Source of the DNA: Oxalobacteraceae bacterium
GTDB lineage: Bacteria > Pseudomonadota > Gammaproteobacteria > Burkholderiales > Burkholderiaceae_D
Length of the DNA stretch: 64,000 nt
NCBI GenBank assembly: GCA_900299005.1
Contig: OMID01000060.1
Span: 19,790-83,789 of the forward strand
Direction: 5' to 3'
This document shows, one piece after another, positions 3,226 through 52,074 of this stretch. A program made the position numbers and the translations under genes. How positions within the stretch are numbered: the first letter of the stretch is position 1; every line of letters begins with the position of its first letter. The notes beneath the pieces were generated by a model, which saw only the letters and a list, made by a program, of their open reading frames with translations, had not been told where the DNA came from and did not search any database.

Positions 3226-3287
3226 ACAACCGAACAGGCAGTTTACGTAGCCCGTGAGCGGGTGACTGATTTTCAGGAGAAGGCTTG

Positions 3288-4715
3288 ATGAGTTCCATTG
3301 ATTACAGCGAAAAAATCCCGAACAACGTCAATTTGTCGGAAGACAGAGCCCTGCAGCGCGCACTGGAACACTGGCAGCCGAACTACCTGCAATGGTGGCA
3401 GGACATGGGGCCGGACGGCTCGCAGAATTTTGATGTCTATCTGCGTACCGCCATCAGCACCACGCCAGAGGGTTGGGCGCACTTCGGCCATGTGAAGATG
3501 CCGGACTACCGCTGGGGGATTTTCCTGGCGGCCCAGGAAGAAGGTCGCCAAGTCAATTTTGGTGAGCACAAGGGCGAAGCGGCCTGGCAGGATGTCCCGG
3601 GCGAGCATCGCGCCAATCTGCGTCGCATCATTGTCACCCAGGGTGACACCGAGCCCGCCTCAGTGGAACAGCAGCGTCATCTCGGTCTCACCGCGCCATC
3701 GCAATATGATCTGCGCAATCTTTTCCAGATTAATGTGGAGGAGGGGCGTCATCTGTGGGCCATGGTGTACCTGCTGCACAAATATTTCGGGCGCGATGGT
3801 CGTGAGGAAGCCGAGGCCATGCTGCATCGTCACTCCGGCTCGCAGGACAATCCGCGCATTCTTGAAGCCTTCAATGAAGAGACACCAGACTGGCTTGCGT
3901 TCTACATGTTTACTTACTTCACCGACCGTGATGGCAAATTTCAGCTGTGCGCGCTGGCGGAGTCCGGCTTTGATCCGCTCTCGCGCACCTGCCGCTTCAT
4001 GCTGACCGAGGAAGCACATCACATGTTCGTCGGTGAGTCTGGCGTGTCACGCACGATTCAGCGCACTGCCGAGATCATGAAGCAGCACGGCATTGAAGAT
4101 CCGGAGCAGGTACGCCAGCATGGCGTCATCGATTTGCAGACGATACAGCGCTATCTGAATTTTCATTTCAGTGTCACGATCGACCTGTTTGGCGCCGATC
4201 AGTCATCGAATGCCGCCACCTTCTACAGCGCGGGTCTGAAGGGGCGCTACGAAGAAACAAAACGCGCGGACGATCATGCACTCAAGGGCGATCATTACAA
4301 GATCCTGGAAGTCAAAGATGGCAAGCTCGTAGAAAAAGAAGTACCCATGCTCAACGCGCTCAATGAAGTGCTGCGCGATGATTACATCAAGGATTCCATT
4401 GCCGGCATCAACCGCTGGAACAAGGTGCTCGAAAAGGCGGGCCTTTCCTTCCGTTTGCAAGCCCCGCACAAGGCGTTCAATCGTCATATTGGTTCTTTTG
4501 CCGGTATGCGTGTCTCTCCTGATGGGCGCATGATCTCGGAGACCGAGTGGCAGGGCAAGGTTCGCAACTGGCTCCCCAGTGAGGAAGATCGTGCCTATGT
4601 CGCGTCGCTGATGGGGCGCGTGGTCGAACCGGGCAAGATGGCAAACTGGATAGCGCCACCGGCCATCGGCATCAATCGACAGTCGGTCGATTTCGAGTAC
4701 GTGCGATTTAACTGA
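3288..4715 (+). CDS. boxB: Benzoyl-CoA 2,3-epoxidase oxygenase component (BoxB)
   Basis: 475 aa ORF; di-iron oxygenase-like '[20 protein letters not shown]', '[14 protein letters not shown]'; box gene order. Confidence 0.93.
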
Positions 4716-4728
4716 GCGGACGCGGCTG

Positions 4729-5952
4729 ATGAGTGCGATGGAAACCGAGGTGCTCATCCGTCAGCACCTGATTGACCCCGAGGTCTGCATCCGTTGCAAT
4801 ACGTGCGAGGAGACCTGCCCCATCAATGCGATCACCCACGATGATCGCAACTATGTCGTTGATCCCGCAGTCTGTAATGGCTGCAACGCTTGTCTGCCAC
4901 CGTGTCCTACGGGCTCCATCGACCATTGGCGCACGGTACCGAAACACAATGCGTACTCCGTCGAAGCTCAACTCGGGTGGGATGAGTTGCCCCCCGAGCA
5001 GGAGCTCGCTGGCGAGACGATGGCGGTCGTTGCAAGCGCGTCTTCGCAGCAGCTCAATGCAGCGGTGTCTGCCACATCGCCCATGGCGCCGCATTCTGCA
5101 GAGAAGCCCCAGGTACACTGCTTTGACACGCGTAACCCCGTGACGGCGACGGTAGCCGGCAACTACCGGCTCACTGCTGAGGACGCCGAGAGCGACATAC
5201 GGCATATCGTGCTCGATTTCGGTAATCATCGTTTCCCGGTGCTGGAGGGGCAATCGGTTGGCATCATTCCTCCCGGTGTGGACGCGGCCGGCAAGCCGCA
5301 TTATCTGCGCATGTACTCCATTGCCAGTCCTCGCGATGGCGAACGCCCTGGCTACAACAACCTGGCGTTGACAGTCAAGCGAGTAGTGGGCGAGCAGGAT
5401 GGCACAGTGATTCGGGGTGTCGCGTCGAACTATCTGTGCGATCTGAGAAAAGGCGATCGTGTCCAGGTCACGGGACCGTACGGCGACCGTTTCCTGATGC
5501 CCAACCACCCCGGATCGAATCTCCTGATGATCTGCACCGGCACCGGCGCTGCGCCGATGCGCGCAATGACAGAGTACCGGCGACGCTTGCAAGCGCAAGG
5601 CAGGGCGGTCGAGGGCCAGCTGATGCTGTTCTTTGGTGCTCGCATGCCTGACGAGCTGCCTTACTTCGGCCCCTTGCTCAAGCTGCCGCCAAGCCTGATT
5701 ACCAAACACTTTGCCTTCTCTCGCCTGCCCGGCGAGCCTCGCTGCTATGTGCAGGACAAGCTGCGCGAGCATGCTTCCGCGGTGGCCGAGCTGCTGACGT
5801 CAGACACCTTTATCTACATTTGCGGCCTTAAAGGTATGGAAGCCGGCGTCATGGAGGCACTGCACGATGTCTGCGCAAAGACAGGCATGAACTGGGAGGC
5901 ACTGCATCAGACGATGGTCAACGAAGGCCGCTTCCATGTAGAGACGTATTGA
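4729..5952 (+). CDS. boxA: Benzoyl-CoA 2,3-epoxidase reductase component (BoxA)
   Basis: N-terminal ferredoxin motifs '[12 protein letters not shown]' and '[12 protein letters not shown]' followed by an FNR-like domain. Confidence 0.93.
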
Positions 5953-6360: not shown

Positions 6361-8499
6361 ATGACGAAGACCTTGGTTTGCTGGCGCCGTGCCATCACGG
6401 GCCTGCTGTTGGTGGCAAGTGCTGTGGGTCATGCAGTCACGCTGAAAAAAGCCGATGTTGATCAGTACCTGTCGAAGCAGTACCTGGTCGGCGACATTAA
6501 CCCGAATGTTCCGGTCTGGCCCTTGTTCGAACGTCAGCCCACGACAGAGAATGAAAAACCCCAGCTGATCGGCTATGCGTTCGAGTCTGTTGATTTCGAG
6601 CCAGTGCGCGGCTATGGCGGCAAGCCGATTAATATTCTCGTGGCGATAGACACCCAGGGCAATTTCCTCTTGTCCAGGTTGCTCGAGCATCGCGAGCCCC
6701 TGTTTCGGTCCGAGGTGGGCATTGCCAAACTGACGGAATTCGCTTCCCAATATGTGGGCATCACCGTCAGGCATGAGACACATTTGCAGGGCTTTCGTGC
6801 GAAGACATCGCATGATGACAAGCGTGCCTACTTGCATGGCGTGCAGGCGGGCACGGTGTCGGCCAAGGCAATCGACCGCACCATTTTGCAATCGGCAGCC
6901 TCGGTCGCGCTCGCCCATGAGGAGGCTGCCCGAGCAGGAACGATCATCGGCGAGGGCGATGCGGTTACCCTCACCAAGGGTAATTTACGAAACGTCGAGG
7001 TCAAGCCGCTGACATGGGATCAGCTCCTCTCGCGCCGCATGGTCGAGCCAATGTCACTGACGCGCAGACAGATCGAAAAAGCATTTGCCGGTACCCGTGC
7101 CGCTGGCGCAGACAAGCTGGCCGCTACCCAACCCGACGAGGTAGCCTTGCAATTCCATGTCGCGCTGGCCAGCATTCCCCAGATCGGGCGCAATGTGCTG
7201 GGCGAGGAGGGATGGCGGCTGCTGGTGGCCAACATGCGCGATAGTCAGGCCCTGGTGATCAGCGAAAGCGGGCCCTTGTACAAGATGATGTACGAGAGCC
7301 AGCGCATCGTGGACGATCAGCCCTTCGTGCTAAAACAAGATGGCAAGGTCGTATCACTGCGCGCCATCGCCTACGATAAAGATCTCGTCGTGCCGGGCTA
7401 CCCGACGACGACGCGGGTCCATGTGCTGATTGTTGACAGCGCAACGCCACTGGATCCTTCAAGGCCCTTCGATCTTGCTCTGCGATTCGGTCGTCGTTAC
7501 GGGTCATTCGCGCATCAGGTTGCGTACACGGAGTTTGCCATGCCCTATGAGTTCTATGGCTGGCGAAGGACATTATCGCGATGGATGGACGCCGACTGGG
7601 TCGATGCGTGGAGCAAGCGCAGTGCCGAGATTGCGGTGCTGCTGGCAGGACTGATCGTGCTCAGTGTTGCGCTGGTTCGCCAACGCGTGACTGCGCACAG
7701 CGCACGACGGCTGAAGATCTTCCGCATTGCCTATTTGCTGTTCACGCTGGGCTTTATCGGCTGGTTCGCGCAGGGGCAATTAAGTATCGTGAACATCACC
7801 GCCTCCCTGGAGGCACTCTCGACAGGCAATGACCTCAGTTTCCTGCTGGCTGATCCGATGACGGTGATCCTCTGGATCTTTGTGGGTATGACCTTGCTCG
7901 TGTGGGGGCGCGGCACCTTTTGTGGCTGGCTGTGTCCCTTCGGGGCATTCCAGGAGCTTGTCAGCCTGATCGTGCGGCGCATCGGAATAAGGCCGCGCCG
8001 CCTGCGCGGGGCATGGGACCGCTCTCTCAAATGGATCAAATACCTGGTGCTGGGGGCAGTGCTTGCGACGATCTGGCTGGCGCCAACTTCCACCGAGCTG
8101 GTGGTCGAGGTCGAACCCTTCAAGACAGCTATCAGCCTGTATTTCGTCCGAGATTGGCCCTATGTCGTCTGGGCGGTCGGTCTCTTGGCGCTGAGTGTCT
8201 TCGTCTATCGCGGATATTGCCGGTATATTTGCCCACTGGGCGCCGCGCTTGCGGCCCTGAATCCGCTGCGTCGCTGGGGCTGGATTGCGCGCCGAGATGC
8301 CTGCGGCAAGCCGTGCCAGACTTGCCGTCATCGCTGCGAGTATCAATCGATCGCGCCGTCCGGCAAAGTGAGCTACAGCGAATGCTTTCAGTGCCTCGAT
8401 TGTGTCGCGATTTATCGCGACGACACCCAATGCCTGCCCCTGATCCAGGAGCGTAAGCGCAAGGTCATCCACCTTTACGAAGAAAGGGCTGCGGCATGA
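6361..8499 (+). CDS. NosR/NirI-like membrane polyferredoxin with periplasmic FMN-binding domain (copy 1)
   Basis: 712 aa; signal-like N-terminus, multiple TM segments, 'FCGWLCPFGAFQEL', 'CRYICPLGAALA', C-terminal Cys-rich Fe-S motifs. Confidence 0.85.
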   Translation: MTKTLVCWRRAITGLLLVASAVGHAVTLKKADVDQYLSKQYLVGDINPNVPVWPLFERQPTTENEKPQLIGYAFESVDFEPVRGYGGKPINILVAIDTQGNFLLSRLLEHREPLFRSEVGIAKLTEFASQYVGITVRHETHLQGFRAKTSHDDKRAYLHGVQAGTVSAKAIDRTILQSAASVALAHEEAARAGTIIGEGDAVTLTKGNLRNVEVKPLTWDQLLSRRMVEPMSLTRRQIEKAFAGTRAAGADKLAATQPDEVALQFHVALASIPQIGRNVLGEEGWRLLVANMRDSQALVISESGPLYKMMYESQRIVDDQPFVLKQDGKVVSLRAIAYDKDLVVPGYPTTTRVHVLIVDSATPLDPSRPFDLALRFGRRYGSFAHQVAYTEFAMPYEFYGWRRTLSRWMDADWVDAWSKRSAEIAVLLAGLIVLSVALVRQRVTAHSARRLKIFRIAYLLFTLGFIGWFAQGQLSIVNITASLEALSTGNDLSFLLADPMTVILWIFVGMTLLVWGRGTFCGWLCPFGAFQELVSLIVRRIGIRPRRLRGAWDRSLKWIKYLVLGAVLATIWLAPTSTELVVEVEPFKTAISLYFVRDWPYVVWAVGLLALSVFVYRGYCRYICPLGAALAALNPLRRWGWIARRDACGKPCQTCRHRCEYQSIAPSGKVSYSECFQCLDCVAIYRDDTQCLPLIQERKRKVIHLYEERAAA

Positions 8500-9500
8500 A
8501 TCCGACTCGACGACAGTATCTCCGACTGGGCATGGGGCTGGGATTTCTGGCCGCCTGCCCCACGTTGTCGGTCGCGGCCGATGCGTCCGAGCGTGACCTG
8601 GCGGCCCGACTTAGCTGGCGCGAGCGCTCGCTCCTGGGCTTTGGCACTACGCTCTGGCTGCGCGCTGGTGACCTGAGTGCGGACAAGGCCGAGGCCGCGC
8701 TAGACAAGTCCGTGCAACTGCTTCGTCAGACCGAATCTCAGATGAGTCTGTTTGATGAGCACAGTGAGATCAGCCGTTTGAATCGCGCAAGTGAACTGCG
8801 CAAACCCTCGCGTGAGCTGCTGCAGGTCATCGCGCTGTCGTCGACGATTTCCTCGGCCAGCCACGGGACTTTCGACATCACAATGCAGCCGTTGTGGACT
8901 GTGTGGGCGCGCGCGCAGGCCGAGTCGCGCCTGCCAACCCAGCGCGAGCTTCAGGCCGCGCGAGCTCGCGTGAACTGGCAGGTGCTCAAACATGCCACGA
9001 ATTCTCTTGTGTTACCCAAGGGGATGTCGCTTTCTCTGAATGGCATTGCACAGGGGTTTGCTGCCGATGCACTGCGTACGCAGATGCAGGCCATGGGCAT
9101 CCGGCATGCGATGCTCGATACGGGCGAGACCGCCGTGTTGGGTGAGGCGCCCGGAGGGGTGCCGTGGCGTTTCGGCATCGAAGATGTACATCGGCCAGAC
9201 TCTGCACCAGTGCAGGCGGCAACTGTGCCTGATGGCTATGCGATAGCAACCTCCTCCGATGCGCATACCACCTTCACCGAGGATCGCGTGCACCATCACA
9301 TTCTCGATCCACGCACGGGTGATTCACCTGGCTGGTGGTCTTCCGTCACGGTGATGGCCAAAAGTGCGGCGCTCGCTGATGGTCTGACCAAGGTATTTTT
9401 CATGTTGCCTCCGTCGCAGGTGCAGCAGGCCGCCAAGCGCTGGGGTGTGGCAGTGATCTTGCAGGACAAGCAGGGCCGATGGCGTCGGTTTGCCGCCTGA
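8496..9500 (+). CDS. apbE: FAD:protein FMN transferase (ApbE family)
   Basis: 'LSLNGIAQGFAADALR', 'TGETAVLGEAPGGVPWRFGIEDV', 'HHILDPRTGDSP'; ATGA overlap with the upstream gene. Confidence 0.88.
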   Translation: MNPTRRQYLRLGMGLGFLAACPTLSVAADASERDLAARLSWRERSLLGFGTTLWLRAGDLSADKAEAALDKSVQLLRQTESQMSLFDEHSEISRLNRASELRKPSRELLQVIALSSTISSASHGTFDITMQPLWTVWARAQAESRLPTQRELQAARARVNWQVLKHATNSLVLPKGMSLSLNGIAQGFAADALRTQMQAMGIRHAMLDTGETAVLGEAPGGVPWRFGIEDVHRPDSAPVQAATVPDGYAIATSSDAHTTFTEDRVHHHILDPRTGDSPGWWSSVTVMAKSAALADGLTKVFFMLPPSQVQQAAKRWGVAVILQDKQGRWRRFAA

Positions 9501-9618: not shown

Positions 9619-10023
9619 GTGATGAAGGCCGTTGTGCTTTCTCTCGCGCTTTGCTTAACCGGTCTCGTGACAACGACCGCGCACGCCGCATGGAAATTAA
9701 TCGACTTCACAGATGAAGCGGCGTTCTATATCGATGATTTCTTCGAGCCCGGGCCTCAGCCCCGGATCTGGGAATTGGTCGACTACCGTGTTCCCAATGA
9801 GTTCGGCAGCCAGTCGGCCAGGATATTGTGGGAGGTGGATTGCACGCGCAGCGTCGTGCGCACGCTGAGTTTCAGTTCACATCCTCATCGCATGGGTATC
9901 GGCGAACCCATCAGCATCGACAACCGGGTCGGTGAGTGGGCGCTGCCACCGGAATACTCGCCTCAGGAGGCGGTGTTCATCCTCGCCTGCGGCTTCGAAC
10001 CTGCTGCCGGCCCCAAGACCTGA
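9619..10023 (+). CDS. Exported protein of unknown function (possibly surface-adhesin E-like)
   Basis: Signal peptide MKAVVLSLALCLTGLVTTTAHA; small beta-rich domain. Confidence 0.6.
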   Translation: MMKAVVLSLALCLTGLVTTTAHAAWKLIDFTDEAAFYIDDFFEPGPQPRIWELVDYRVPNEFGSQSARILWEVDCTRSVVRTLSFSSHPHRMGIGEPISIDNRVGEWALPPEYSPQEAVFILACGFEPAAGPKT

Positions 10024-10035
10024 GCATGGGCTGAC

Positions 10036-10058
10036 TTATCGATTTAGTAAATCGATAA
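10036..10058. promoter_or_regulatory. Perfect 11-bp-arm inverted repeat TTATCGATTTA-G-TAAATCGATAA followed by a T-run
   Basis: Exact palindrome with a 1-nt centre, 13 nt after a stop codon. Confidence 0.6.
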
Positions 10059-10187
10059 AATTTTTCATCATGACTGGCCAGTCGCTGCGCACTTCTGTCC
10101 GCTTTTTGCGCATTTACCAGATAGAATGCCCGGTCGAGAAAATCTATAACAAAAATAAACGCCCGGCCATGGCGTAGGGGAGCCTGT

Positions 10188-10871
10188 TTGAAGATCAGTT
10201 TTCTACGACTGATGCCGTCCAGCCCGCACAGAAAGATCGAACCCATCCTGTTCGAGTGGTTCACGTTGATCGGCATGTTCCTGTTCGCCGCCTGGCTGCT
10301 CGGTCTCAAGGGGGTCTGGCAGTTGCTGCTGCAATCGGACCCCACCGGCATTACCTTCGTCATCATCGTTATTTTTTGTGTCGCGACAATCTGGTGCGGC
10401 ATGCGCAGCCGCGAGCTGGATCGTCAGCGAGAGAGTCTGGAGCATCAGATCGCCAACTCGGCAAGCGCGCCTGCGGAGTACTGCTGGTCTCATGCCTACT
10501 GGGAGGCACTGAGGTCCAATCCACGCGATTCAGGCGCCCCCATGGACCTGCTGACCGAGAAGACGCACGGTTGCCACAGCACCGCCTGGTGGGTGAACGG
10601 CCTGCAGCTGAAGCTTGGGCTGCTGGGCAAGGTGATCGGCTTTTCGATGCTGGCTATGCAGATCGGCCATATGCAAAGTTTTGACCAATCACAGGCGCAG
10701 GAGATGTTGCGCGATTTGACCACGGGCCTCGGCGTCGCGCTGCTGACCACGATGGTGGGTCTGGTTGCGAACATCTTGCTGGGCCTGCAGCTGACGCGGC
10801 TGGATCGGTTTGCAGATGATCTGGTGTCGCGTGCACAGACCCAGGGACTGAAGATCAAGGCATCGGAGTGA
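10188..10871 (+). CDS. MotA/TolQ/ExbB-like proton-channel family protein
   Basis: 'LKLGLLGKVIGFSMLAMQIG' and 'LTTGLGVALLTTMVGLVANILLGLQLTRLDRFADDLV' resemble ExbB/TolQ TM2-TM3. Confidence 0.72.
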   Translation: MKISFLRLMPSSPHRKIEPILFEWFTLIGMFLFAAWLLGLKGVWQLLLQSDPTGITFVIIVIFCVATIWCGMRSRELDRQRESLEHQIANSASAPAEYCWSHAYWEALRSNPRDSGAPMDLLTEKTHGCHSTAWWVNGLQLKLGLLGKVIGFSMLAMQIGHMQSFDQSQAQEMLRDLTTGLGVALLTTMVGLVANILLGLQLTRLDRFADDLVSRAQTQGLKIKASE

Positions 10872-10881
10872 GACAAGGCTG

Positions 10882-11514
10882 ATGCGTGATCGTCGCAAAT
10901 CCCGGGAGCCGGAGGTCGACCCAATGTATGACATGTTGTTCAACATGCTCATTGCATTCGTGTTTTGCTTCATCATTGCCTTCATTTCGATCAATCCCAA
11001 GGCGCAGAAGAGTGGCGACATCCCCGCAAAGGCAGAGTTCATCATCACGCTGAGCTGGCCGGACAATGACCCGAACGATCTCGATCTCTGGACCCAAGGT
11101 CCGTCGGGGGAGGTCGTCTGGTTCCGCAATCGCGAAGCCGGGCTCATGCACCTAGACCGCGATGATCGCGGTAGTTCGAACAACACCATCATGGTCAACG
11201 GCAAGAAGCTCGTGAACCCGCTGCGGCAAGAGGTGACCACGATACGCAGCATCGTTCCCGGCGAGTATGTGGCGAATGTTCACTACTACGAAACCAAGGA
11301 CCTCGATCCGGGTGAGCCCAAGTCCGGCAGGCCGGTCGAGGCCACGCTAACGGTCATCAAGGTGAACCCCAAGGCCGAGGTCGTGTTTTATGGGCAGGCG
11401 ACTCTGGAGAGTCGCGGCAAGGAAACCACCATGGTGCGGTTTACCGTGGAGCCCAACGGTTCAGTCTCGAATGTCAACACCATTCCCAAGTCTTTAGTGA
11501 AGTCAATCACATGA
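10882..11514 (+). CDS. ExbD-like single-TM anchor fused to a periplasmic YfaP/DUF2135-like beta-sandwich domain
   Basis: 'VDPMYDMLFNMLIAFVFCFIIAFISI' then 'LSWPDNDPNDLDLWTQGPSGEVVWFRNREAG'. Confidence 0.6.
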   Translation: MRDRRKSREPEVDPMYDMLFNMLIAFVFCFIIAFISINPKAQKSGDIPAKAEFIITLSWPDNDPNDLDLWTQGPSGEVVWFRNREAGLMHLDRDDRGSSNNTIMVNGKKLVNPLRQEVTTIRSIVPGEYVANVHYYETKDLDPGEPKSGRPVEATLTVIKVNPKAEVVFYGQATLESRGKETTMVRFTVEPNGSVSNVNTIPKSLVKSIT

Positions 11515-12008
11515 CCCTTACCCTGATCATCGCATTCGCGATCTTTGTTTTTCTGTTTGCGTTGGCCATCGTATTCTCGGGTTGGCCACGCTGGCTCAAG
11601 GGCGTGCTGACACTGGGTGTCTGCGCCTTTTATTTTTTTGGTTATCAGGCAGTATTCAGCCTGCTCGGCAATCCCAGTGTGGATCCCTTACCAGCGCGCT
11701 TTCTGCTGATCGCTGCTGTCGTCGAGGAGCCAAGGCCCAAGTATGCGGGCGCCCTCTATCTCTGGGTGACGCCCATCGAGGAGGGCAAGCAAGGACTTGA
11801 GCCACGCGCCTACAAGCTGCCTTACATGCGCGCACTGCACGAAAAAATCAATGAGGGAATGCGCAAGGGGCGCCAGGGCATTAGTCAGATGGGCACCGCC
11901 GAACCCAGAGCGGGCACCGGCAAGGGACCTAGCTGGCTTAATCCCGGCAAGGATGAGCAGGAGGTGAAGATTGTTGATCTGCCCGTGCCGCAAGTCCCGG
12001 AAAAATAA
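11511..12008 (+). CDS. Membrane-anchored protein of unknown function
   Basis: 4-bp ATGA overlap with the upstream gene; N-terminal TM segments. Confidence 0.6.
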   Translation: MTLTLIIAFAIFVFLFALAIVFSGWPRWLKGVLTLGVCAFYFFGYQAVFSLLGNPSVDPLPARFLLIAAVVEEPRPKYAGALYLWVTPIEEGKQGLEPRAYKLPYMRALHEKINEGMRKGRQGISQMGTAEPRAGTGKGPSWLNPGKDEQEVKIVDLPVPQVPEK

Positions 12009-12009
12009 G

Positions 12010-12723
12010 ATGCGACGACTGCTCTTTTCCCTGCTAATGATGTGCCTGCTGGCGGGTTGCGACAAGCCGGCGCAAGACCATCCTTTTTTTCCGCTTGAGT
12101 CAGGTAGAAGCTGGACTTACAAGGTCGAGATTGCTTTTGATGATCCTGATGCGCATCTCGACAGCTACCTGCTCACGCTCACTAACCGTGGGCGGGTGGA
12201 GCTAAACGGCAAAGAGGCCTGGCGCCGTCGTAGCGACACGGGCAATGAATACTGGCTGCGTACCGACGAGCAGGGTGTCTATCGCGTGGCCAGCCGTGGT
12301 CCGGCCGGCAAAGAAGCGATGCTCGATCCCGGACCGCGCATTGTCTTGCCGGCCAAACTCAGCAAAGAAGCGAAATGGTCGACGACCACCGTGCCCTATT
12401 TTCTTAAACGGCGCAACGAGTGGCCACCGGAATTCAAATACGTCGATAAATATCGCAACCTCACCATGAATTACACGATCGAAGCATTGGATCAGAAGGT
12501 GACCACACCCTCAGGCGCGTATAGCGGCTGTTTGATGGTCAAGGGTATTGCCGAGATCAACGTTTGGGTCGAGAGCGACATGACCTACAAGGAAGTACCC
12601 ATGGAAAATGTCGAATGGTATTGCCCGGGCGTCGGCCTGGTGCAATTGGAACGTCGCGAGCCGACGACAGCGCGTTTCTTTCAAGGTGGCGTCATGCGCA
12701 TGGTGCTGGTAAAGACAGAATGA
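12010..12723 (+). CDS. Lipoprotein of unknown function
   Basis: Starts 1 nt after the previous stop; signal MRRLLFSLLMMCLLAGC with lipobox LLAGC. Confidence 0.65.
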   Translation: MRRLLFSLLMMCLLAGCDKPAQDHPFFPLESGRSWTYKVEIAFDDPDAHLDSYLLTLTNRGRVELNGKEAWRRRSDTGNEYWLRTDEQGVYRVASRGPAGKEAMLDPGPRIVLPAKLSKEAKWSTTTVPYFLKRRNEWPPEFKYVDKYRNLTMNYTIEALDQKVTTPSGAYSGCLMVKGIAEINVWVESDMTYKEVPMENVEWYCPGVGLVQLERREPTTARFFQGGVMRMVLVKTE

Positions 12724-13428: not shown

Positions 13429-15108
13429 ATGAAATTCTCAACCAAGCTCATGACTTCTGCAGTGATGCTGGCAGCCGCCCAGCTCGCCGCTGCGAATAAT
13501 TGGGGTGTCTATGGTGGTGATTCGGGTAATACGCGATACAGCACTGCCAATCAGGTTACGCCCGCAAACGTAAAAAATTTGCAGGTCAAGTGGGCACTGC
13601 AATTAGGCACCAACCGCTCGCAGGAATCCGTGCCTATCGTGGTGGGCGATACGCTGTATGTGACCTCTTCCTATGGCCCGAAAAATGTGATCGCGGTCAA
13701 CGCGAAGACGGGCCAAATGAAGTGGAAGTATCAGCCGGAAATTCCAAAGAACGTTGATCAGTTCGCTTGCTGCGACGTGGACAACCGCGGCGTGGCATAC
13801 GCGAATGGCAAAATTTTCTTCGGCCGTCTTGATGCAAAAGTGACCGCCCTCGATGCCAAGACTGGTAAAGAGCTGTGGACCTCCACCGTCGTGGACTACA
13901 CACAGGGTTCGGCCATCACCTCCCCACCGACCATCGTCAAGAATTTGGTCGTCACTGGTTTCGCTGGTGGCGAGTACGGTGTAAGGGGTGCGATCGTCGC
14001 CTATGATCAGAACACCGGTAAAGAAGTGTGGCGCACGCATACCGTGCCCCTGCAGGGTGAAAAGGGTGGCGACACCTGGAAGGGCGACTCCGGCAAGCAC
14101 GGTGGCGCAGCTGCCTGGCTGATTGGTTCCTACGACCCCAAGCTGAACCTGGTCTACTACGGAACATCGAACCCGGCTCCCTGGTCTGCGGCGGTACGTG
14201 GTAATGACAGCTCCGACATCGGCAAGTACTCCAATCTTTACTCCGCATCGGTGCTGGCCATCAACGGCGATACAGGCGCCATTCAGTGGCACTATCAATT
14301 CACACCGCATGATGCATGGGACTATGACGGCGTGAACGAACTGGTCTTTGCTGATCTGCCCATCGATGGCAAGACCACGCCGGTGATCATGCAGGCTAAC
14401 CGTAATGGCTTCTTCTACGTGCTTGATCGCGCCAATGGCAAGCTGCTCTCCGCCAAGCCTTTCGTGGATGGCGTGAACTGGGCCACCGGTATCGACTTGA
14501 AGACCGGCATGCCGATCGAAGCTCCCGGCAACAAGTTCCGTCCTGGTCTCAAGCGCAAGGCTGTCAATGTCTGTCCTAACCTCATCGGCGGAAAGAACTG
14601 GCAGAGCATGAGCTACAACAAGGACACCGGCCTGGTGTACATCCCGACCACCAACCTCTGCATGGACATGGAAGCAGTTCAGGAGGATTACAAGCGTGGT
14701 CAGTTCTACCTGTCGGTTAACTTCGATCTGGGCAAAATGGGCCCCGGCGGTCACGGTGGTGGACTGAAGGCCTGGGATCCGGTCAAGCAGAAGGAAGCCT
14801 GGTTCTTCAAAGAAGAACTGCCGCTCAACGGTGGCACCATGACTACCTCAACCGGTCTGGTATTTGCGGGCGATGTGAAGGGTATCTTCCGTGCCTTTGA
14901 CGCCAAAACCGGCAAGATCCTGTGGGAGTTCAACACAGGTTCTGGCATCAGCGCCGCGCCGATGACTTACGTCATCGATGGCAAGCAGTATGTCGCTGTG
15001 GTGTCTGGACGCTCGCAGTCGATTCCTGCGTTCTTCGGAGAGGTTGGCCAGAAGATCGTGGACGCCAGCGCTGAGGGTGGCACGCTGTTCGTTTTTGCTG
15101 TTAATTAA
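13429..15108 (+). CDS. PQQ-dependent alcohol dehydrogenase 1, lanthanide-type active-site motif
   Basis: 559 aa with signal peptide; 'FACCDVDNRG' vicinal Cys, 'GGEYGVRG', 'GTSNPAPW', 'WDYDG'. Confidence 0.93.
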   Translation: MKFSTKLMTSAVMLAAAQLAAANNWGVYGGDSGNTRYSTANQVTPANVKNLQVKWALQLGTNRSQESVPIVVGDTLYVTSSYGPKNVIAVNAKTGQMKWKYQPEIPKNVDQFACCDVDNRGVAYANGKIFFGRLDAKVTALDAKTGKELWTSTVVDYTQGSAITSPPTIVKNLVVTGFAGGEYGVRGAIVAYDQNTGKEVWRTHTVPLQGEKGGDTWKGDSGKHGGAAAWLIGSYDPKLNLVYYGTSNPAPWSAAVRGNDSSDIGKYSNLYSASVLAINGDTGAIQWHYQFTPHDAWDYDGVNELVFADLPIDGKTTPVIMQANRNGFFYVLDRANGKLLSAKPFVDGVNWATGIDLKTGMPIEAPGNKFRPGLKRKAVNVCPNLIGGKNWQSMSYNKDTGLVYIPTTNLCMDMEAVQEDYKRGQFYLSVNFDLGKMGPGGHGGGLKAWDPVKQKEAWFFKEELPLNGGTMTTSTGLVFAGDVKGIFRAFDAKTGKILWEFNTGSGISAAPMTYVIDGKQYVAVVSGRSQSIPAFFGEVGQKIVDASAEGGTLFVFAVN

Positions 15109-15123: not shown

Positions 15124-16305
15124 ATGCCCAAGTTGCTTGTTACGCCTGGCAGGTTCGCGTTGAAGACTGCTGTTGTATTCGCTGGCCTTCTGTCGATGTC
15201 GGTGGCTTTTGCCGACACGCTGAAAGTCTGCTCCGATCCTGATAATTTGCCTTTCAGTAAATCTGAAGGGTCGGAAAAAGGTCTTTATGTCGAGCTTGCA
15301 GAACTGGTAGGCAAGCACTTGGGCAGCTCCGTAGAGTATGTCTGGTGGTTGACGCATAATCAGCGACGCGCCATCCGAAACACCATGGATGGCTGCGATG
15401 CGTATTTTGCTCTTCCCGCAACGGCTGACTACAAAGTCAGAGGCGCGGACAAGAGCCGTGCTTTCATGGATGTTGGTTTCGCTCTGGTTGGACCGGCATC
15501 TTTTACATTGAGATCTCTGGAAGATCTCAAGGGCAAGCGTGTTGGTGTTTTGCATGGATCGCCGCCTCATATCTTGCTTTCTGCCGAGCCGGGCTACGAA
15601 CCAAGGAATTACAAGTTTCAGGAAGAAGTGTTCGACGCTCTGGCCAAAGGCGAACTGGATCTCGCAGTCCTATGGGGCCCGAGTGCCGGCTACGAAAATC
15701 AGAGCCGACTGCAGAATCGCTGGACTATCACACCGGTTGCTGGTTTTGGCCTGAACGGGCAAGTTGCCGTGGCTGTCTCCAAGGGCAAGACCGAGTTGAG
15801 AGACAAGATTGATCATGCGCTCACCGAGCTGCAGCCCGAAATCAAGCAGCTGCAAAAGAAATATGGTTTTCCGCAGGCGGTGCCCGTCGTTCTGGATGCC
15901 AAGGGCTCGTGGAACACTATCATTGAACAAGTCGCTGGCGGCACAGCGCAAGCGAATGTAAAGAAGTTCAGCGACAAAGGCGCGGCGAAGATGACGCTGG
16001 CTGCTGCCGAAAAAACCGATCTGCAGTCGAACATGATCAAGGTCGCTGATGTCGACATGGAAGAAATCAAGGGTATGTTCAACAGCCGCTGCTCACATTG
16101 CCACGGTCAGAATGGCGCCAGCCCGCAGTCGGAACGAGATCTGCGCAAGCTGTCCAAGCGCTACGACGATAAATGGCAGGATGTTGCGCACACCACGATT
16201 ACCAATGGCCGCCCGGAACTGGGTATGCCGACGTGGGGCGGTACGCTATCTGATGCCGACATCCGCAATATCATCAAATTTCTGGGGACTATCCAGCGCA
16301 AGTAA
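15124..16305 (+). CDS. XoxJ/MxaJ-like periplasmic substrate-binding protein fused to a C-terminal cytochrome c domain
   Basis: SBP fold 'LKVCSDPDNLPFSKSEG...GLYVELAELVGKHLG' followed by 'SRCSHCHGQNG...LGMPTWGGTLSDADIRNIIKFLGT'. Confidence 0.85.
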   Translation: MPKLLVTPGRFALKTAVVFAGLLSMSVAFADTLKVCSDPDNLPFSKSEGSEKGLYVELAELVGKHLGSSVEYVWWLTHNQRRAIRNTMDGCDAYFALPATADYKVRGADKSRAFMDVGFALVGPASFTLRSLEDLKGKRVGVLHGSPPHILLSAEPGYEPRNYKFQEEVFDALAKGELDLAVLWGPSAGYENQSRLQNRWTITPVAGFGLNGQVAVAVSKGKTELRDKIDHALTELQPEIKQLQKKYGFPQAVPVVLDAKGSWNTIIEQVAGGTAQANVKKFSDKGAAKMTLAAAEKTDLQSNMIKVADVDMEEIKGMFNSRCSHCHGQNGASPQSERDLRKLSKRYDDKWQDVAHTTITNGRPELGMPTWGGTLSDADIRNIIKFLGTIQRK

Positions 16306-24782: not shown

Positions 24783-25053
24783 CTTGTTCTGGCAGTGAAT
24801 AGGCTTTCACAGGCAACCATCACGCACTGCGCTCACCCGCAGATTTTTCTTCCTACTGTCAGACAACCCTCAGGTTTCATTTCGACCCGAAGATTGCTGT
24901 TCAAATTGATAATCCGCTTCGCATCTAGCCCAGGCTTGAGTGCGAAATGTGCCCGGCTTCGTGGTAGATTGCATCTGCCTTTGCAGCAAACGAATAACCA
25001 AAAAAGGGCCGGCCGTCACCTGCAGTAGCGACCGTGCTTGTGGGGGAGGGTCT

Positions 25054-27282
25054 GTGCGCGCATTCGCGGTGTTGTGCTTGAGCCTGTTTAGCGCCTTGAG
25101 CGTCTCTTCCGATGCATGCGCCGGCTTGCTGAAGCGCGACGAGGTCGACAAACTGCTAGATAGCCAGTTCATCGTCGGCGAGATGCAGGCCGACATGCCG
25201 GTCTATCCTCTGATGTTGAAAAATCCTGCCGGCGGCAAGCCTGAGCTCAAGGGGTACGCCTTCGAGTCGCTCGACTTTGAGCCGGTGCGTGGGTATAGCG
25301 GCAAGCCGATCGATGTGCTGGTCGCCATGGATCTGACCGGCAGCTTCATCGACCTGAGGCTGGTCGATCACAAAGAGCCTTTTTTCAACAACCCGACCGG
25401 CACGGCGCGACTTGGCACGTTTACGGCGCAATACACGGATCTCTCGCTGCGCCATACGGTGCGCATTCATGACTGGCGCGCAGCGACCAAGCGTGACGAT
25501 CAGTCGGCTGATCTGCAGGGCGTCAATCACGGCACCGTCACGACCAAAGCGATCGACCGATCAATCTTTGCCTCGGCAGCCAAAGTCGCGGTGGCCAAGC
25601 TTGACCCGAGCATTGCGGCTGCGGCAGCGGCGCGTCGTCGCAGCACGCGAGAGAGCTTTCGACCATTGGACTGGGACGATTTGCTGGCACGCGGGATGGT
25701 GCGCACCACCGTCATCAGACTCGATGATATCGAGCGTGCCTATGCGAATATCAACGAACCCGGAGGCGGCAAACTGGAAGGCCTTGCGCGCGATGCACCT
25801 GTGCTGCGTTTTCAGGTGGCGCTGCTTGGCATTCCCTCGATTGGCCGTAACTTGCTTGATGACGAAGGTTGGCGCTATCTGAACACCAGCCGTCGCAAAT
25901 CGCAGGCGCTGCTGGTGACCGAGAGCGGCCCGCTGGCGGCGGTGTCTGATGCCCTGTTGCGGCCAGCCCTGCCCGAAGCGCGCAGCACGGGCGATCCGCG
26001 TCTTGCTGCGCAGGACGCTCAAGCACCGATCGACCGCCCGCCTTCAGACAATGCAATTAGTGCGCTGCGGGTGCCCGATGAACTGCCATTCGTGCTGACC
26101 CAAAACGGCAAACCCCTGAAATTCAGCAGCATTGGCTATGACAAGCGCCTCAAAGTGCCTGGGTATCCGAAATCCACCAAGGCGTATTTTCTGGTGATCG
26201 ACAAGGCCACGCCGCTGGATCCGGCTCAGCCTTTTGATCTCTCATTCCGGCTGGGCCGGCGATTTGGCACCAACCAGATCATGAATCATGTCGAACAGCG
26301 CCAATTTCCTCTGGTGTATGACTTCCACGGCTGGCGGGCAACCCTGTACGACTGGTGGGATACGGATTTTTCTTCCATCGACTGGATCAAGGCATGGCAG
26401 TCACGCTGGCTGGATATCGCTGCGCTAATCATCGGACTGGGCCTACTCACCGTGGCCTTGTTCGCTCAGCGCCGGATCACGGCCAGTACACGCACACTCA
26501 CGATCTTCCGCACGGCCTATCTGATCTTCACACTGGGCTTCATCGGCTGGACTGCACAAGGACAGCTGACCATCATCAACGTGACGGCAGCCCTGGAATC
26601 ACTCAGAGGCGGAGGCGATCTCGGTTTCCTGATGAATGACCCCATGACAGTGATTCTCTGGCTATTCACCGGTGTGACGCTGCTGGTCTGGGGGCGTAGC
26701 ACCTTCTGCGGCTGGCTGTGCCCCTTCGGGGCGATGCAAGAGCTGATCAGCATGATTGCCAATCGCCTTGGCCTTCACCAGCGACGTTTGCGGGCGGCGC
26801 TTGATGCGAAGCTCAAGTGGATCAAATACCTTGTGCTGGCCGTGATCATGGGCTCGGTATTCGTCGCACCGTCATTCTCCGAGCTGGCCGTCAAGGTAGA
26901 ACCTTTCGAGACTGCGATCAGTTTTTATTTCATGCGCGATTGGCCTTATATTGTCTGGGCGGTTCTTTGCCTCGCGTTTGGATTATTTCTTTACCGAGGC
27001 TACTGTCGTTACCTATGCCCACTGGGTGCAGCACTGGCCTGCGTTAATCTGCTGCAGCGATGGCACTGGATCCCGCGCCGTGCCGAGTGCGGAACGCCAT
27101 GTCAGTCCTGCCGGCACCGCTGCGAATATCAGGCGATCACACCTGATGGCAAGATTAATTACAGTGAATGCTTCCAGTGTCTAGATTGCGTGGCAATCTA
27201 CCAGGATGACAAGCGCTGCCTGCCATTGATAGAAGAGCGCAAGCGCCGCGTCATACCCATTCGCAGCACCCAGGCGGCCTGA
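25054..27282 (+). CDS. NosR/NirI-like membrane polyferredoxin with FMN-binding domain (copy 2)
   Basis: GTG start after GGGGGAGGG; paralogous to 6361..8499 over most of its length. Confidence 0.85.
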   Translation: MRAFAVLCLSLFSALSVSSDACAGLLKRDEVDKLLDSQFIVGEMQADMPVYPLMLKNPAGGKPELKGYAFESLDFEPVRGYSGKPIDVLVAMDLTGSFIDLRLVDHKEPFFNNPTGTARLGTFTAQYTDLSLRHTVRIHDWRAATKRDDQSADLQGVNHGTVTTKAIDRSIFASAAKVAVAKLDPSIAAAAAARRRSTRESFRPLDWDDLLARGMVRTTVIRLDDIERAYANINEPGGGKLEGLARDAPVLRFQVALLGIPSIGRNLLDDEGWRYLNTSRRKSQALLVTESGPLAAVSDALLRPALPEARSTGDPRLAAQDAQAPIDRPPSDNAISALRVPDELPFVLTQNGKPLKFSSIGYDKRLKVPGYPKSTKAYFLVIDKATPLDPAQPFDLSFRLGRRFGTNQIMNHVEQRQFPLVYDFHGWRATLYDWWDTDFSSIDWIKAWQSRWLDIAALIIGLGLLTVALFAQRRITASTRTLTIFRTAYLIFTLGFIGWTAQGQLTIINVTAALESLRGGGDLGFLMNDPMTVILWLFTGVTLLVWGRSTFCGWLCPFGAMQELISMIANRLGLHQRRLRAALDAKLKWIKYLVLAVIMGSVFVAPSFSELAVKVEPFETAISFYFMRDWPYIVWAVLCLAFGLFLYRGYCRYLCPLGAALACVNLLQRWHWIPRRAECGTPCQSCRHRCEYQAITPDGKINYSECFQCLDCVAIYQDDKRCLPLIEERKRRVIPIRSTQAA

Positions 27283-43270: not shown

Positions 43271-43867
43271 AAAGAACCGATCTGCTCGGTTCGCTGGCGG
43301 CATCGTCGCCTTACCATCGCCCGAATGAGCCAAATTCACGGCGATAACCCCTCGACCGACAGGGCCAAGTTGATCTCCTACCGGCGGCGCCTTGCATATT
43401 TTGTTAATGCCCTTCTTTTAAATATAAAAACACATTTGCGTGCAGTAGCAGAACGCTGCGCCGCAAAACAGGGCGGCATTTTTGCTGGCAAAGCGCACAT
43501 TTTTCGTCGGATTTACACTAGCTTGCGTCGCTAAGTGATTGATGTGGATGGGCATGATCAGATGGCCCGCTTATTTGGCGCTGCAAAAAAAAAGATGGTC
43601 ACCGATGGCGATTCCTTCCTCGCCTACAGTTCTCCCTGTGCCCATGCGTCACCGGCCCAGGCCAGAGTGCGAGCTTGCCAGAAAAAAAATCAAGGCCAGA
43701 TACAAAAGAATGGCTTGTTTGAATATAGTTTGAAACGTATATTTCATCCGTCACCGTAGTTTCACCGGATTAAATGTTGGTTTCACGGGGCAGGCGACCG
43801 TGGCTGACTGGGTGAGCGGGACTCACTAGAACGATAAAAAGCGTAAGTCTAATTGGAGGAAACAACG

Positions 43868-45613
43868 ATGAAGAATGGTGTCAACACCAAACTGAAGGTA
43901 GTGGCTGGCTCTCTGATGTTGGCCGGTGCCGCAGTCGCCGTCGCGGGCGACGTCACTTGGAACCGTCTCCTGAATGCGCACAACGACCCCAACAACTGGC
44001 TGATGTATCACCAGTCGTTCAATGGTTATCACCATAGCGGACTGGACCAGATCAATACATCGAACGTGAAGAATCTCGGCGTCGCCTGGATTCACACGCC
44101 GAATGCCACCAAGCGTGGTATCCAGTCGTTCCCGCTGGCAGTGGATGGCATCCTGTACTACACCTCTGCTTCGGGCAAGGTGTGGGCACTGGACGGCACC
44201 AACGGCAAAGCCATCTGGAGCTACCAGGCCAAGCTCGACAATGAGCGCGGCGAAGGTACGTTCTACAACCCGTACAACCGTGGTATCGCTATCGGTCACG
44301 GCAAGGTTTACCTTGGCACCGTTGACGGTCGCGTGATCGCGCTCGACCAGAAGACCGGCAAGCCCGTCTGGGACAAGATGGTCATGACCGTCGAGAAGGG
44401 CAACAAGGGCTTTACTGGCGCTCCGCTGGTTGTGAAAGACAAGGTCATTATCGGTTCCAACGGTGGTGAGCTGTCCGGCTGCTGCGGCCCGATCTTCGGC
44501 ATCAACGCCGAGACTGGCGACACCGTATGGCAGTTCGACACCATCGGTGGCGACGAGCGCTCACGTGCCTCCTGGGGCAATGACTCCTGGAAGACTGGTG
44601 GCGGCGGTGGCTGGATGACCGGCCAGTACGATCCCAAGACCAACTCGGTCTGGTGGGGTACTGCAAACCCAGCGCCTGACTACGACTACTCTGGCGACAA
44701 GTGGAAGACCGAGGGCGCACGTCCTGGTGACAACCTCTACAGCTCGTCGGTCGTAGTTCTGGATCCGGACACTGGCAAGCTGAAGTCCTATTTCCAGGAA
44801 ATGCCTCACGATGCCTGGGATTTCGACAGCGCCGTGGGTGAGTTCATGCGCATCTCGAAGAATGGCAAGGACTATGTCGTTCACCCGAACAAGGGCGGCA
44901 TTATCTTCGTCTACAACGGTGCTAACGTCGGCGGTGGCAATAAGCTCGACGTCGAGAACGCCTACATGATCGATGACGGTACCTTCAACTACATCAAAGG
45001 CGTATCGCCCAAGGGTGAGCTGATCGGACGCGTCGATTTCACCGAGGGCAAGTTCCCGAACATGTGCCCCGCGATCGATGGCTCGGTGTCGTGGAATGCC
45101 GGTTCCTACAGCCCCAAAACGGGCCTGATGTACAAGGCCACGCAGCAGTGGTGCTTCGACCTCGAAGTGGTGAAGGCAGATCGTCCGAAGGACTTCTCTG
45201 GCCAGAACTACTTCGGCGCATCGTGGACCGCGACGCATCCGAAGGGCAAGCAGGCGTACGGCACCATTCAGGCACGTGACCCGATCAGCGGCAAGATGGC
45301 ATGGCGCGTCGAGTACAAGTACCCTGTACTCGCTTCGCTGCTCTCGACCAAGGGCGACCTCGTGTTCGTCCCAGGCGCTGATGGCGTATTCCAGGCACTG
45401 GATGCGAAGACCGGCAAGGAACTGTGGAGCCACAACAATGGCCTCGGTCACCACGGTGGCGTGATCTCCTACACCGCGAAGGGCAAGCAGTATGTGGCCG
45501 TCGTGACTGGCTGGGGTAGCCACGTTGCTGGTAACTACGGTCCGCTGTTTGGCTCACCATTCAGCGAAATGCCGACGGATAACGGTCAGCTGATCGTTTT
45601 CGCACTGAAGTAA
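43868..45613 (+). CDS. PQQ-dependent alcohol dehydrogenase 2, lanthanide-type motif, vicinal Cys next to the catalytic Glu
   Basis: 'NGGELSGCCGPIFG', 'GTANPAPDYD', 'HDAWDFDSAVG'; signal peptide; GGAGG RBS. Confidence 0.92.
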   Translation: MKNGVNTKLKVVAGSLMLAGAAVAVAGDVTWNRLLNAHNDPNNWLMYHQSFNGYHHSGLDQINTSNVKNLGVAWIHTPNATKRGIQSFPLAVDGILYYTSASGKVWALDGTNGKAIWSYQAKLDNERGEGTFYNPYNRGIAIGHGKVYLGTVDGRVIALDQKTGKPVWDKMVMTVEKGNKGFTGAPLVVKDKVIIGSNGGELSGCCGPIFGINAETGDTVWQFDTIGGDERSRASWGNDSWKTGGGGGWMTGQYDPKTNSVWWGTANPAPDYDYSGDKWKTEGARPGDNLYSSSVVVLDPDTGKLKSYFQEMPHDAWDFDSAVGEFMRISKNGKDYVVHPNKGGIIFVYNGANVGGGNKLDVENAYMIDDGTFNYIKGVSPKGELIGRVDFTEGKFPNMCPAIDGSVSWNAGSYSPKTGLMYKATQQWCFDLEVVKADRPKDFSGQNYFGASWTATHPKGKQAYGTIQARDPISGKMAWRVEYKYPVLASLLSTKGDLVFVPGADGVFQALDAKTGKELWSHNNGLGHHGGVISYTAKGKQYVAVVTGWGSHVAGNYGPLFGSPFSEMPTDNGQLIVFALK

Positions 45614-50337: not shown

Positions 50338-52074
50338 TTATTTTTCCAGTTTGAACACCATGATGGTGCCGCCCTGCGGGACGAGGGTGACGTTGCCTTC
50401 CAGCGCGTCGATGCCGTTTTGCATACGCTGAGCATCGATACCCCAGCCGGCCTGCACCGCGATGTACTGCACGCCATTCACCTCGTAGGACGAGGGCACG
50501 GCGGTCACGCCAGAGGGCATGTTGTACTGCCAGAGTACCTTGCCGTTGGTGGCATCGAAGGCACGGAAAACACGGTCATTCGTGCCGCCGGTGAAGACGA
50601 GATTACCCGCAGTAGTCAGCAGCGGAGCCCAGATCGGACGATCGAACTTGTGTACCCAGGCCAGCTTGCCGGTGTTCAGATCCCATGCCTGCAATTCACC
50701 AATGGTGCTTGGCTTCTTGCCGTCCTGGTAGCGCAGGCTACCCAAGACGCCGTCGATCGGGTAACCGATGTAGAGGTCGCCTTTTTTGTAGGTGATCTCA
50801 TCGGCTTTGGGCAGCTCAGAGCAGAGGTTGTTGTTTGCAGGGATGTAGAACAGCTTGGTCTTCGGATTCCAAGCCTCTGGTGGCCAGTCCTTGCCACCCC
50901 ACAGCGAGGGGCAGAAGTTCACGGCCTTGCCCATGCCCGGCGTGTGAGCCTTGTTGTAGCTGGGGCGACCTGTCTTTTTATCAATGCTGGTGAAGACATC
51001 ATTCTTCACATAAGGAACCGCATTCACATAGTCGATCTGGCCACTCTTCTGGCGATCAAGCATCCAGAGATAGCCGTTACGGCCTGCGTGAACCGCACCA
51101 CGCACTTTCTTGCCATTGATTTCGGTATCCATCAGGATCGGTGCACTGACCTCATCCCAGTCCCAGGCATCGTTGTGATGGTACTGATGGTGACCTTTGA
51201 TCTTGCCGGAGTCGACGTCCAGTGCAACCACCGAGGTGCTGTACAGATTGTCGCCAACACGACCTTCGGTCGGCCAGGGAGCCGGATTGCCCGTGCCCCA
51301 GTAGGCGATGTTGTTTGCCGAATCATACGTGCCGGTGATCCAGACGCTGGCGCCACCATGCAGGTGGGTGTTGCCCGGCCATGTGTCACCACCTGGCTCG
51401 CCGGGAGCCGCAGTCATGAATGTGCGCCAAGCTTCTTTGCCCGTGTTGGCGTCAAAGGCCGCCACGAAACCACGCATACCGGTCTCGCCGCCGGATGAAC
51501 CTACCAGAATCTTGCCCTTGGCAGCCAGTGGCGCCAGCGTGATGTAGGAGAGTGCCTTGACATCACCCACGGTAGCATCCCACACGACTTTACCGGTCAC
51601 GGCGTCGAGTGCGATCAGATGAGAGTCGACGGTTGCCACGAAGACTTTGTCACCATACAGCGCAACGCCACGGTTGGTGTTGTGCAGCATGAGCAGATCG
51701 GCAGGAATTTCTTTCTTGTAGCGCCAGATTTCCTGACCTGTGACCGCGTTCAGTGCGATGACTTGCGCATTCGGCGTCGTCACGTACATGTAGCCGTTGT
51801 TGACGATCGGAGGCGATTGATGCCCCTCGGTGACGCCAGTGGCCGAGGACCAGGCCAAGGACAGCTTGCCGACGTTTTTGCTGTTGATTTTCGCCAGAGC
51901 GCTGTAGCCCCAGCCCTCGTAGTTACCACGGTACATGAGCCAGTTGCTCGGCTCAGGGTTTTGCAGTCTTGCATCAGTAACTGGGGAGTAGGGGCCCAGC
52001 TTATCGCCAGCATGAGCCATAACTGCGGTGGCGCTGACGAGTGCTAGCGTCAATTTTTTTAATGTGTGACTCAT
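50338..52074 (-). CDS. PQQ-dependent alcohol dehydrogenase 3, lanthanide-type motif, no vicinal Cys pair
   Basis: 'GSSGGETGMRGFVAAFD', 'GTGNPAPWP', 'NDAWDWDEV'; canonical CC position reads LLMLHNTNRG. Confidence 0.92.
   Translation of the reverse strand: MSHTLKKLTLALVSATAVMAHAGDKLGPYSPVTDARLQNPEPSNWLMYRGNYEGWGYSALAKINSKNVGKLSLAWSSATGVTEGHQSPPIVNNGYMYVTTPNAQVIALNAVTGQEIWRYKKEIPADLLMLHNTNRGVALYGDKVFVATVDSHLIALDAVTGKVVWDATVGDVKALSYITLAPLAAKGKILVGSSGGETGMRGFVAAFDANTGKEAWRTFMTAAPGEPGGDTWPGNTHLHGGASVWITGTYDSANNIAYWGTGNPAPWPTEGRVGDNLYSTSVVALDVDSGKIKGHHQYHHNDAWDWDEVSAPILMDTEINGKKVRGAVHAGRNGYLWMLDRQKSGQIDYVNAVPYVKNDVFTSIDKKTGRPSYNKAHTPGMGKAVNFCPSLWGGKDWPPEAWNPKTKLFYIPANNNLCSELPKADEITYKKGDLYIGYPIDGVLGSLRYQDGKKPSTIGELQAWDLNTGKLAWVHKFDRPIWAPLLTTAGNLVFTGGTNDRVFRAFDATNGKVLWQYNMPSGVTAVPSSYEVNGVQYIAVQAGWGIDAQRMQNGIDALEGNVTLVPQGGTIMVFKLEK

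Follow-up and report, generated by a model that had tools for sequence, protein, structure and literature searches.

The MotA/TolQ/ExbB channel family is known for motors driven by the proton motive force. The mxaRSACKL genes, which serve methanol dehydrogenase maturation and include a MoxR ATPase, DUF58 and vWA proteins, illustrate how helper genes can accompany a periplasmic quinoprotein. A 2025 study further described vWA proteins, carried on a trans-pore helix, that replace TolR/ExbD beside TolQ-like genes (PMC12204202). Here, we describe a unit of four genes—B, D, M and L—in a window of 64,000 nucleotides, the whole stretch of DNA that was analyzed, which looks like an apparently undescribed relative of proton-driven envelope motors. 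Literature searches of partial coverage found nothing that pairs DUF2135 with ExbB, and an earlier description elsewhere is possible. The unit and its neighbors are laid out as follows.

6361-8499, plus strand: NosR-like membrane iron-sulfur protein (497 bits against the NosR model, under its cut-off of 1000)
8496-9500, plus strand: ApbE (E 2.3e-60)
9622..10023, plus strand: Adhesin_E-like secreted protein (PF16747, E 1.5e-11)
10188..10871, plus strand: B, MotA/TolQ/ExbB-family channel subunit, 227 aa, four predicted TM helices (PF01618, hydropathy, conservation)
10882..11514, plus strand: D, predicted trans-pore-helix protein with a periplasmic DUF2135-like beta-sandwich, 210 aa (AF2 model, profile alignment, DUF2135 matches of relatives)
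11511..12008, plus strand: M, two-TM protein with a small periplasmic beta domain (alignment of relatives, AF2)
12010..12723, plus strand: L, DUF3108-like lipoprotein, 237 aa (lipobox, DUF3108_like matches)
13429..15108, plus strand: PQQ-dependent alcohol dehydrogenase, 559 aa (TIGR03075, 648 bits)
15124..16305, plus strand: MoxJ-like periplasmic binding protein fused to a c-type cytochrome (TIGR03871, E 2.7e-30; cytochrome CBB3, E 3.1e-11)

The four-gene operon is real. A 10-nt gap separates B from D, an ATGA overlap joins D to M, and a single nucleotide lies between M and L, which is exactly the order and spacing that an earlier note on this DNA had given for a tightly packed set. B opens with a TTG codon, with an alternative ATG at 10212, and scans for promoters and terminators returned site numbers not above those of shuffled sequence. 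The Adhesin_E gene, which the earlier note had drawn into the unit, stands 164 nt upstream and is restricted to the nearest relatives (19 loci); it was dropped as a core part. The proposed link to NosR and ApbE fared no better: a NosR-like neighbor occurs in only a handful of relatives, and the two genes, not being conserved, are local passengers and no part of the system. Elsewhere in the window, a second NosR-like gene (24940-27282) groups with that at 6361-8499, and two genes at 3285-5952 resemble, by eye, those of benzoyl-CoA oxygenase BoxB and BoxA.

The membership of B in an ExbB/TolQ-like channel family, as first proposed from its translation, holds up in profile searches: PF01618 (MotA_ExbB) matches B at E 6.9e-6 with 26.3 bits, above the curated cut-off of 22.9, and matches 33 of 33 of its relatives. 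Hydropathy predicts four TM helices, the last two of which bear the family motif. In a non-redundant conservation count, D51, between helices 1 and 2, is kept in 56 of 59 proteins, and T188 (codon 10749-10751), the counterpart of ExbB T181 by alignment, is present in 59 of 59. Position 148, within the motif GLLG-x-xxG, is T in 31, K in 25, N in 2 and A in 1; by our own reading of the motif, it appears to correspond to ExbB T148, such that the window protein would present K148 (codon 10629-10631) where ExbB has a pore Thr. A de novo designed pore, the top PDB match of B, was discarded as a resemblance of helix composition.

The partner, D, is modeled as a single TM helix (residues 14–37) followed by a beta-sandwich (AF2 pLDDT 83.7), in keeping with the suggestion that an Asp-bearing TM helix is fused to a DUF2135-like domain. 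The Asp in question is Asp17 (codon 10930-10932), retained in 54 of 60 non-redundant D proteins, phage ones included. An unsupervised profile–profile alignment sets D DPMYDMLFNMLIAF on ExbD IPFIDVMLVLLIIF, Asp over Asp; at the low alignment probabilities of 11% over the full length and 36% for the helix alone, this is support for, and not proof of, Asp17 as the equivalent of the ion-binding Asp of ExbD. Beyond the helix, the resemblance to ExbD ends: the ExbD model PF02472 matches none of 35 D family members and, across 11 whole genomes, found other ExbD genes only and never D; the soluble part of D has no match to the ExbD profile; and no ExbD-like fold is among the PDB matches listed for D, where a fold search yielded no hit that reached E 0.001. 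No Pfam or NCBIfam family matches D above threshold. The DUF2135 model (PF09906) does match 11 of 35 relatives (best E 1.1e-4), leaving the window copy unmatched. The proposal of the earlier note that a DUF2135-like sandwich takes the place of the ExbD domain is supported. D also carries a conserved DRDDRG motif (residues 92–97, 11155-11172), and W59, D66, D68, R93, D94, D95, G97, E117, R122 and G193 are invariant in 61 of 61 non-redundant D proteins. This invariance suggests a putative binding site, for which the acidic patch of the sandwich is the candidate.

By its sequence, M is a new two-helix family, consistent with its earlier description as a novel membrane protein: no significant Pfam, NCBIfam, PDB or fold match was found. 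AF2 predicts two helices and a small beta domain with moderate confidence (pLDDT 78), and the alignment of relatives identifies a conserved C-terminal LPEK. PDB fold matches are mostly OB-fold-like and weak, none at E <= 0.001, and the periplasmic domain is possibly OB-like. DUF4131 was rejected as the family of M, owing to a weak score located over the TM helices. L is borne out as a lipoprotein by a lipobox Cys17 that is invariant in 27 of 27 proteins; DUF3108_like matches 25 of 27 L relatives, and the window protein at E 4.5e-5, under the curated cut-off. The residue that follows the Cys is not fixed (D, Q, N, G, S or E), so L may sit in either the inner or the outer membrane.

Conservation of the gene set in other genomes, on which the earlier proposal had been made to depend, is extensive. 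A one-genome-per-species scan gave 64 loci with D relatives, at 46–91% identity over the best segment, and D was present in 18 of 20 other genomes searched within the genus. B, D, M and usually L occur in the same order in nearly all loci; using widened profiles, and with loci truncated at a contig end set aside, B lies directly before D in all 134 (near-copies included), with M next in 125. Such ordered conservation in more than 100 loci is far beyond chance. It also bears on whether B and D work together at all or simply share an ordinary conserved hypothetical operon. That the ExbD model fails to recognize D would fit the latter account, but strict B–D adjacency across bacteria and phages, the conservation of the Asp and Thr, and paired changes at the ion site (below) make it highly improbable. 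Occurrence is patchy: of 300 genomes in the order, 6 are strong carriers, and in the order to which the Bradyrhizobium-like carriers belong, 14 of 122 genera have the system.

The B-D-M triad is also found without L: in Azospirillum brasilense Sp7 (L086), a genus whose genomes are tentatively read as Bradyrhizobium-like, IMG/VR contigs and isolated Rhizobium/Sinorhizobium phages. More than 20 phage records carry it, annotated as hypothetical and without function, including p038, p040 and p042 of phage 16-3 and gp191-193 of phage P10VF. Iterated profiles score the phage copies at E 1e-13 to 1e-38 for B, 1e-40 to 1e-62 for D and 1e-10 to 1e-41 for M, values that are partly circular as the same sequences had been included before scoring; IMG/VR copies were already significant in the first round with bacterial profiles. 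These phage records could be explained by a phage-related or host-defense envelope module—for superinfection control, for example—lying near PQQ genes by chance. The weak similarity of phage 16-3 B to ZorA of Zorya (E 7.5e-9), and the trypsin-like protease gene that precedes B in 16-3, RHph_TM3_3_14B and one prophage-like locus, point the same way. We nevertheless consider this module very unlikely: the window B reaches ZorA only at E 0.0071, D has no match to ZorB models, linkage to PQQ genes is lasting in several families, and the tree mostly separates phage copies from PQQ-linked ones. The protease genes, whose products are apparently periplasmic, lie just upstream of B-D-M in these temperate Rhizobium phages and the prophage-like locus (L120, phage 16-3, 6175-9063; L125, 6093-9235; L154, 6714-9675). 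The ExbB/ExbD/TonB genes of Azospirillum brasilense that are induced on fructose (PMC11837500) are standard Ton genes and not the triad.

Not every member can safely be called a proton motor, and the chief reason is natural variation at the predicted ion site. In each of the 25 K148 members, D has Tyr16-Asp17-Asn21, and Tyr16 never occurs together with T148. These members, the window copy among them, form one clade (tree support 90/94) and, being monophyletic, represent one event rather than 25. Elsewhere, Val or Ala takes the position of Asp17 itself; a Bradyrhizobium/Methylobacterium-like clade and the gammaproteobacterial L049 show this change, with Lys at 21 each time. Since the tree places the two Asp17-less groups apart, the paired loss of Asp17 and gain of Lys21 probably arose twice. 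Ion flow in the K148 and Asp-less variants may be different or absent. A membrane sensor or gated channel, in which the sandwich of D would bind a periplasmic ligand or metal and M would relay this to control quinoprotein expression or activity, could accommodate a dispensable Asp17 in one clade and a Lys at the pore position in another, and the invariant acidic patch of D resembles a binding site. In several lineages, B is flanked by genes for a histidine kinase and a response regulator, but where present these are divergent from the unit and not co-transcribed, and the window copy adjoins no two-component regulator. Set against the reputation of B's channel family for motors driven by the proton motive force, we judge a sensor or gated channel unlikely. 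In the Bradyrhizobium-like loci L149 and L152, a reading of the sequence only places histidine kinase and response regulator genes divergent from B, and phosphatase-like and Ser/Thr-kinase-like genes after M.

PQQ alcohol dehydrogenase is the commonest conserved neighbor of B-D-M-L, extending to many relatives a link that the earlier note had drawn from the window, and PQQ biosynthesis genes are linked too. B-D-M-L lies directly before the alcohol dehydrogenase gene in many Burkholderiales; in the window and many Comamonadaceae-type loci, this gene and the MoxJ–cytochrome fusion come directly after L. The fusion is a natural one, found beside PQQ dehydrogenase in 18 loci. Some loci hold pqqB-pqqC-pqqE-B-D-M-L in one run, with PqqE directly before B in L075-L079, L103 and L104 (TIGR02109 at E 2e-101), and pqqBCE and alcohol dehydrogenase genes lie near one alphaproteobacterial copy. 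In Limnobacter-type loci, the gene for a quinoprotein-relay type MBL metallohydrolase (weak family score) is found before B. The PQQ link recurs with different genes in different families. A PQQ/quinoprotein gene is present in 23 of the 39 bacterial loci that span 9 kb or more, compared with 0 of 20 similarly sized control windows drawn from six carrier genomes (p 3e-6, which is too small, as the loci are related and the counts not independent). PqqC scores above its cut-off in 5 of 6 strong carriers versus 54 of 294 other genomes of the order; pqqC was not detectable in 4 of 20 distant carriers, some of them incomplete assemblies. An in-frame TGA considered in PqqC of carriers is the natural stop at the gene end. 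Two more PQQ-dehydrogenase-like genes lie in the window at 43853-45613 and 50338-52074.

Among K148 members, the link is strong; in deep clades and phages, it is patchy or absent. No PQQ gene lies near many of the deep relatives (Azospirillum, Bradyrhizobium-like, phage and several marine copies), so that a quinoprotein role can at best belong to some clades. PQQ producers without B-D-M-L are common, and the unit is therefore no general requirement.

A D-[YF]-D at the catalytic Asp marks lanthanide-type enzymes. The window dehydrogenase has DYD at this site, and D-[YF]-D is present in nearly all linked dehydrogenases with a complete site. This lanthanide-type Asp would suit a dedicated energizer for TonB-dependent outer-membrane uptake of PQQ, lanthanide chelates or substrate, with D, or D and L together, in the role of ExbD and TonB. 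Lanthanides and PQQ are taken up through TonB-dependent receptors in other species (PMC7391723, PMC12124388), and receptor genes are close by in about 16 loci; in L106, for example, they stand on either side, and in Limnobacter-type loci the receptor gene is two genes ahead of B. The earlier statement that neither TonB nor a receptor is nearby thus stands for the window's genes, which no receptor gene adjoins, and, as regards receptors, fails for some relatives. Most loci are nonetheless without a receptor gene, B, D, M and L have no match to TonB above threshold, the linker that follows the D helix is short and lacks a TonB-like spacer, and standard ExbBD and TolQR-type pairs are already encoded in the genome; an uptake energizer is accordingly rather improbable. 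In Methylorubrum extorquens AM1, orf6 and orf7, beside pqqE and of unassigned function, are required for La-dependent methanol growth (PMC7391723). Their position resembles pqqE-B-D-M-L.

We consider about evenly balanced the reading that B-D-M is an ion-driven 5:2-type motor which, with L, serves quinoprotein assembly or cofactor/metal handling in the window clade. From what the analysis shows—the gene unit, the family of B, the helix and sandwich of D, their conservation and the genomic PQQ link—we infer the complex, its 5:2 stoichiometry, its motion, its target and the exact step. B, D and M would constitute an inner-membrane machine built like ExbBD, TolQR, MotAB, GldLM and ZorAB, in which a ring of B surrounds a pair of D helices, and ion passage past Asp17 turns or pulls D. 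The DUF2135-like sandwich, with its strictly conserved acidic patch, would replace the usual ExbD/TolR/MotB outer domain, and M would complete the unit as a third dedicated subunit. In the window clade, the machine and L would act in periplasmic quinoprotein alcohol oxidation, the likeliest step being PQQ dehydrogenase assembly, or the delivery or seating of PQQ or its metal, powered by the ion gradient. PQQ synthesis is cytoplasmic and its use periplasmic (PMC12124388), which makes the supply or seating of PQQ or a metal a reasonable candidate for the target.

A broader proposal is tentative, and in our estimate somewhat short of evenly balanced: a new class of 5:2 ion-driven motors across Proteobacteria and phages, whose shaft carries a ligand-binding DUF2135-like sandwich and which requires M. 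One clade would have been co-opted for assembling or supplying periplasmic PQQ dehydrogenases, and the ion site would have been rebuilt more than once—a Lys in the ring, or loss of the Asp with a Lys gained one turn away—with some members perhaps using another ion or none. If true, an undescribed branch, with a swappable output domain, would be added to the small set of ion-driven envelope motors, and the natural ion-site changes would provide ready-made tests of proton use by such motors. The unit would also be a concrete candidate for a missing step in readying PQQ dehydrogenases in the periplasm, and offers a testable idea for hypothetical proteins of Bradyrhizobium-like bacteria, Azospirillum and classic Rhizobium phages.

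How, then, does the unit compare with known systems? With mxaRSACKL it shares the presence of helper genes, with membrane and periplasmic parts, beside a PQQ dehydrogenase, although B, D, M and L include no MoxR ATPase, DUF58 or vWA protein. YfaP/DUF2135 proteins resemble the periplasmic domain of D to the extent that some relatives match their model, but in D this domain is fused to a putative ion-channel helix, and the Pfam model does not detect the window copy. Zorya ZorA–ZorB likewise pairs a MotA/ExbB-type channel with an Asp-helix partner, and the weak similarity to ZorA is strongest in phage 16-3; unlike Zorya, B is without the long ZorA tail, D is without a ZorB match and no other Zorya genes were seen. 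ExbB–ExbD and TolQ–TolR have in common with the unit the channel family of B, the pore Thr (T188) and, in D, a single helix with an Asp at what appears to be the ExbD D25 position. They differ in the outer domain, where D has a DUF2135-like sandwich, and the unit is further set apart by the four predicted TM helices of B, the extra subunit M and the absence of TonB or TolA. The trans-pore-helix vWA proteins similarly accompany a TolQ-like gene without ExbD/TolR, and there too the Asp helix bears another periplasmic domain; here, that domain is DUF2135-like, and the conserved M, the PQQ link and the phage copies are distinguishing features. By analogy, B-D-M may represent a parallel replacement of ExbD/TolR, using another domain and an extra subunit.
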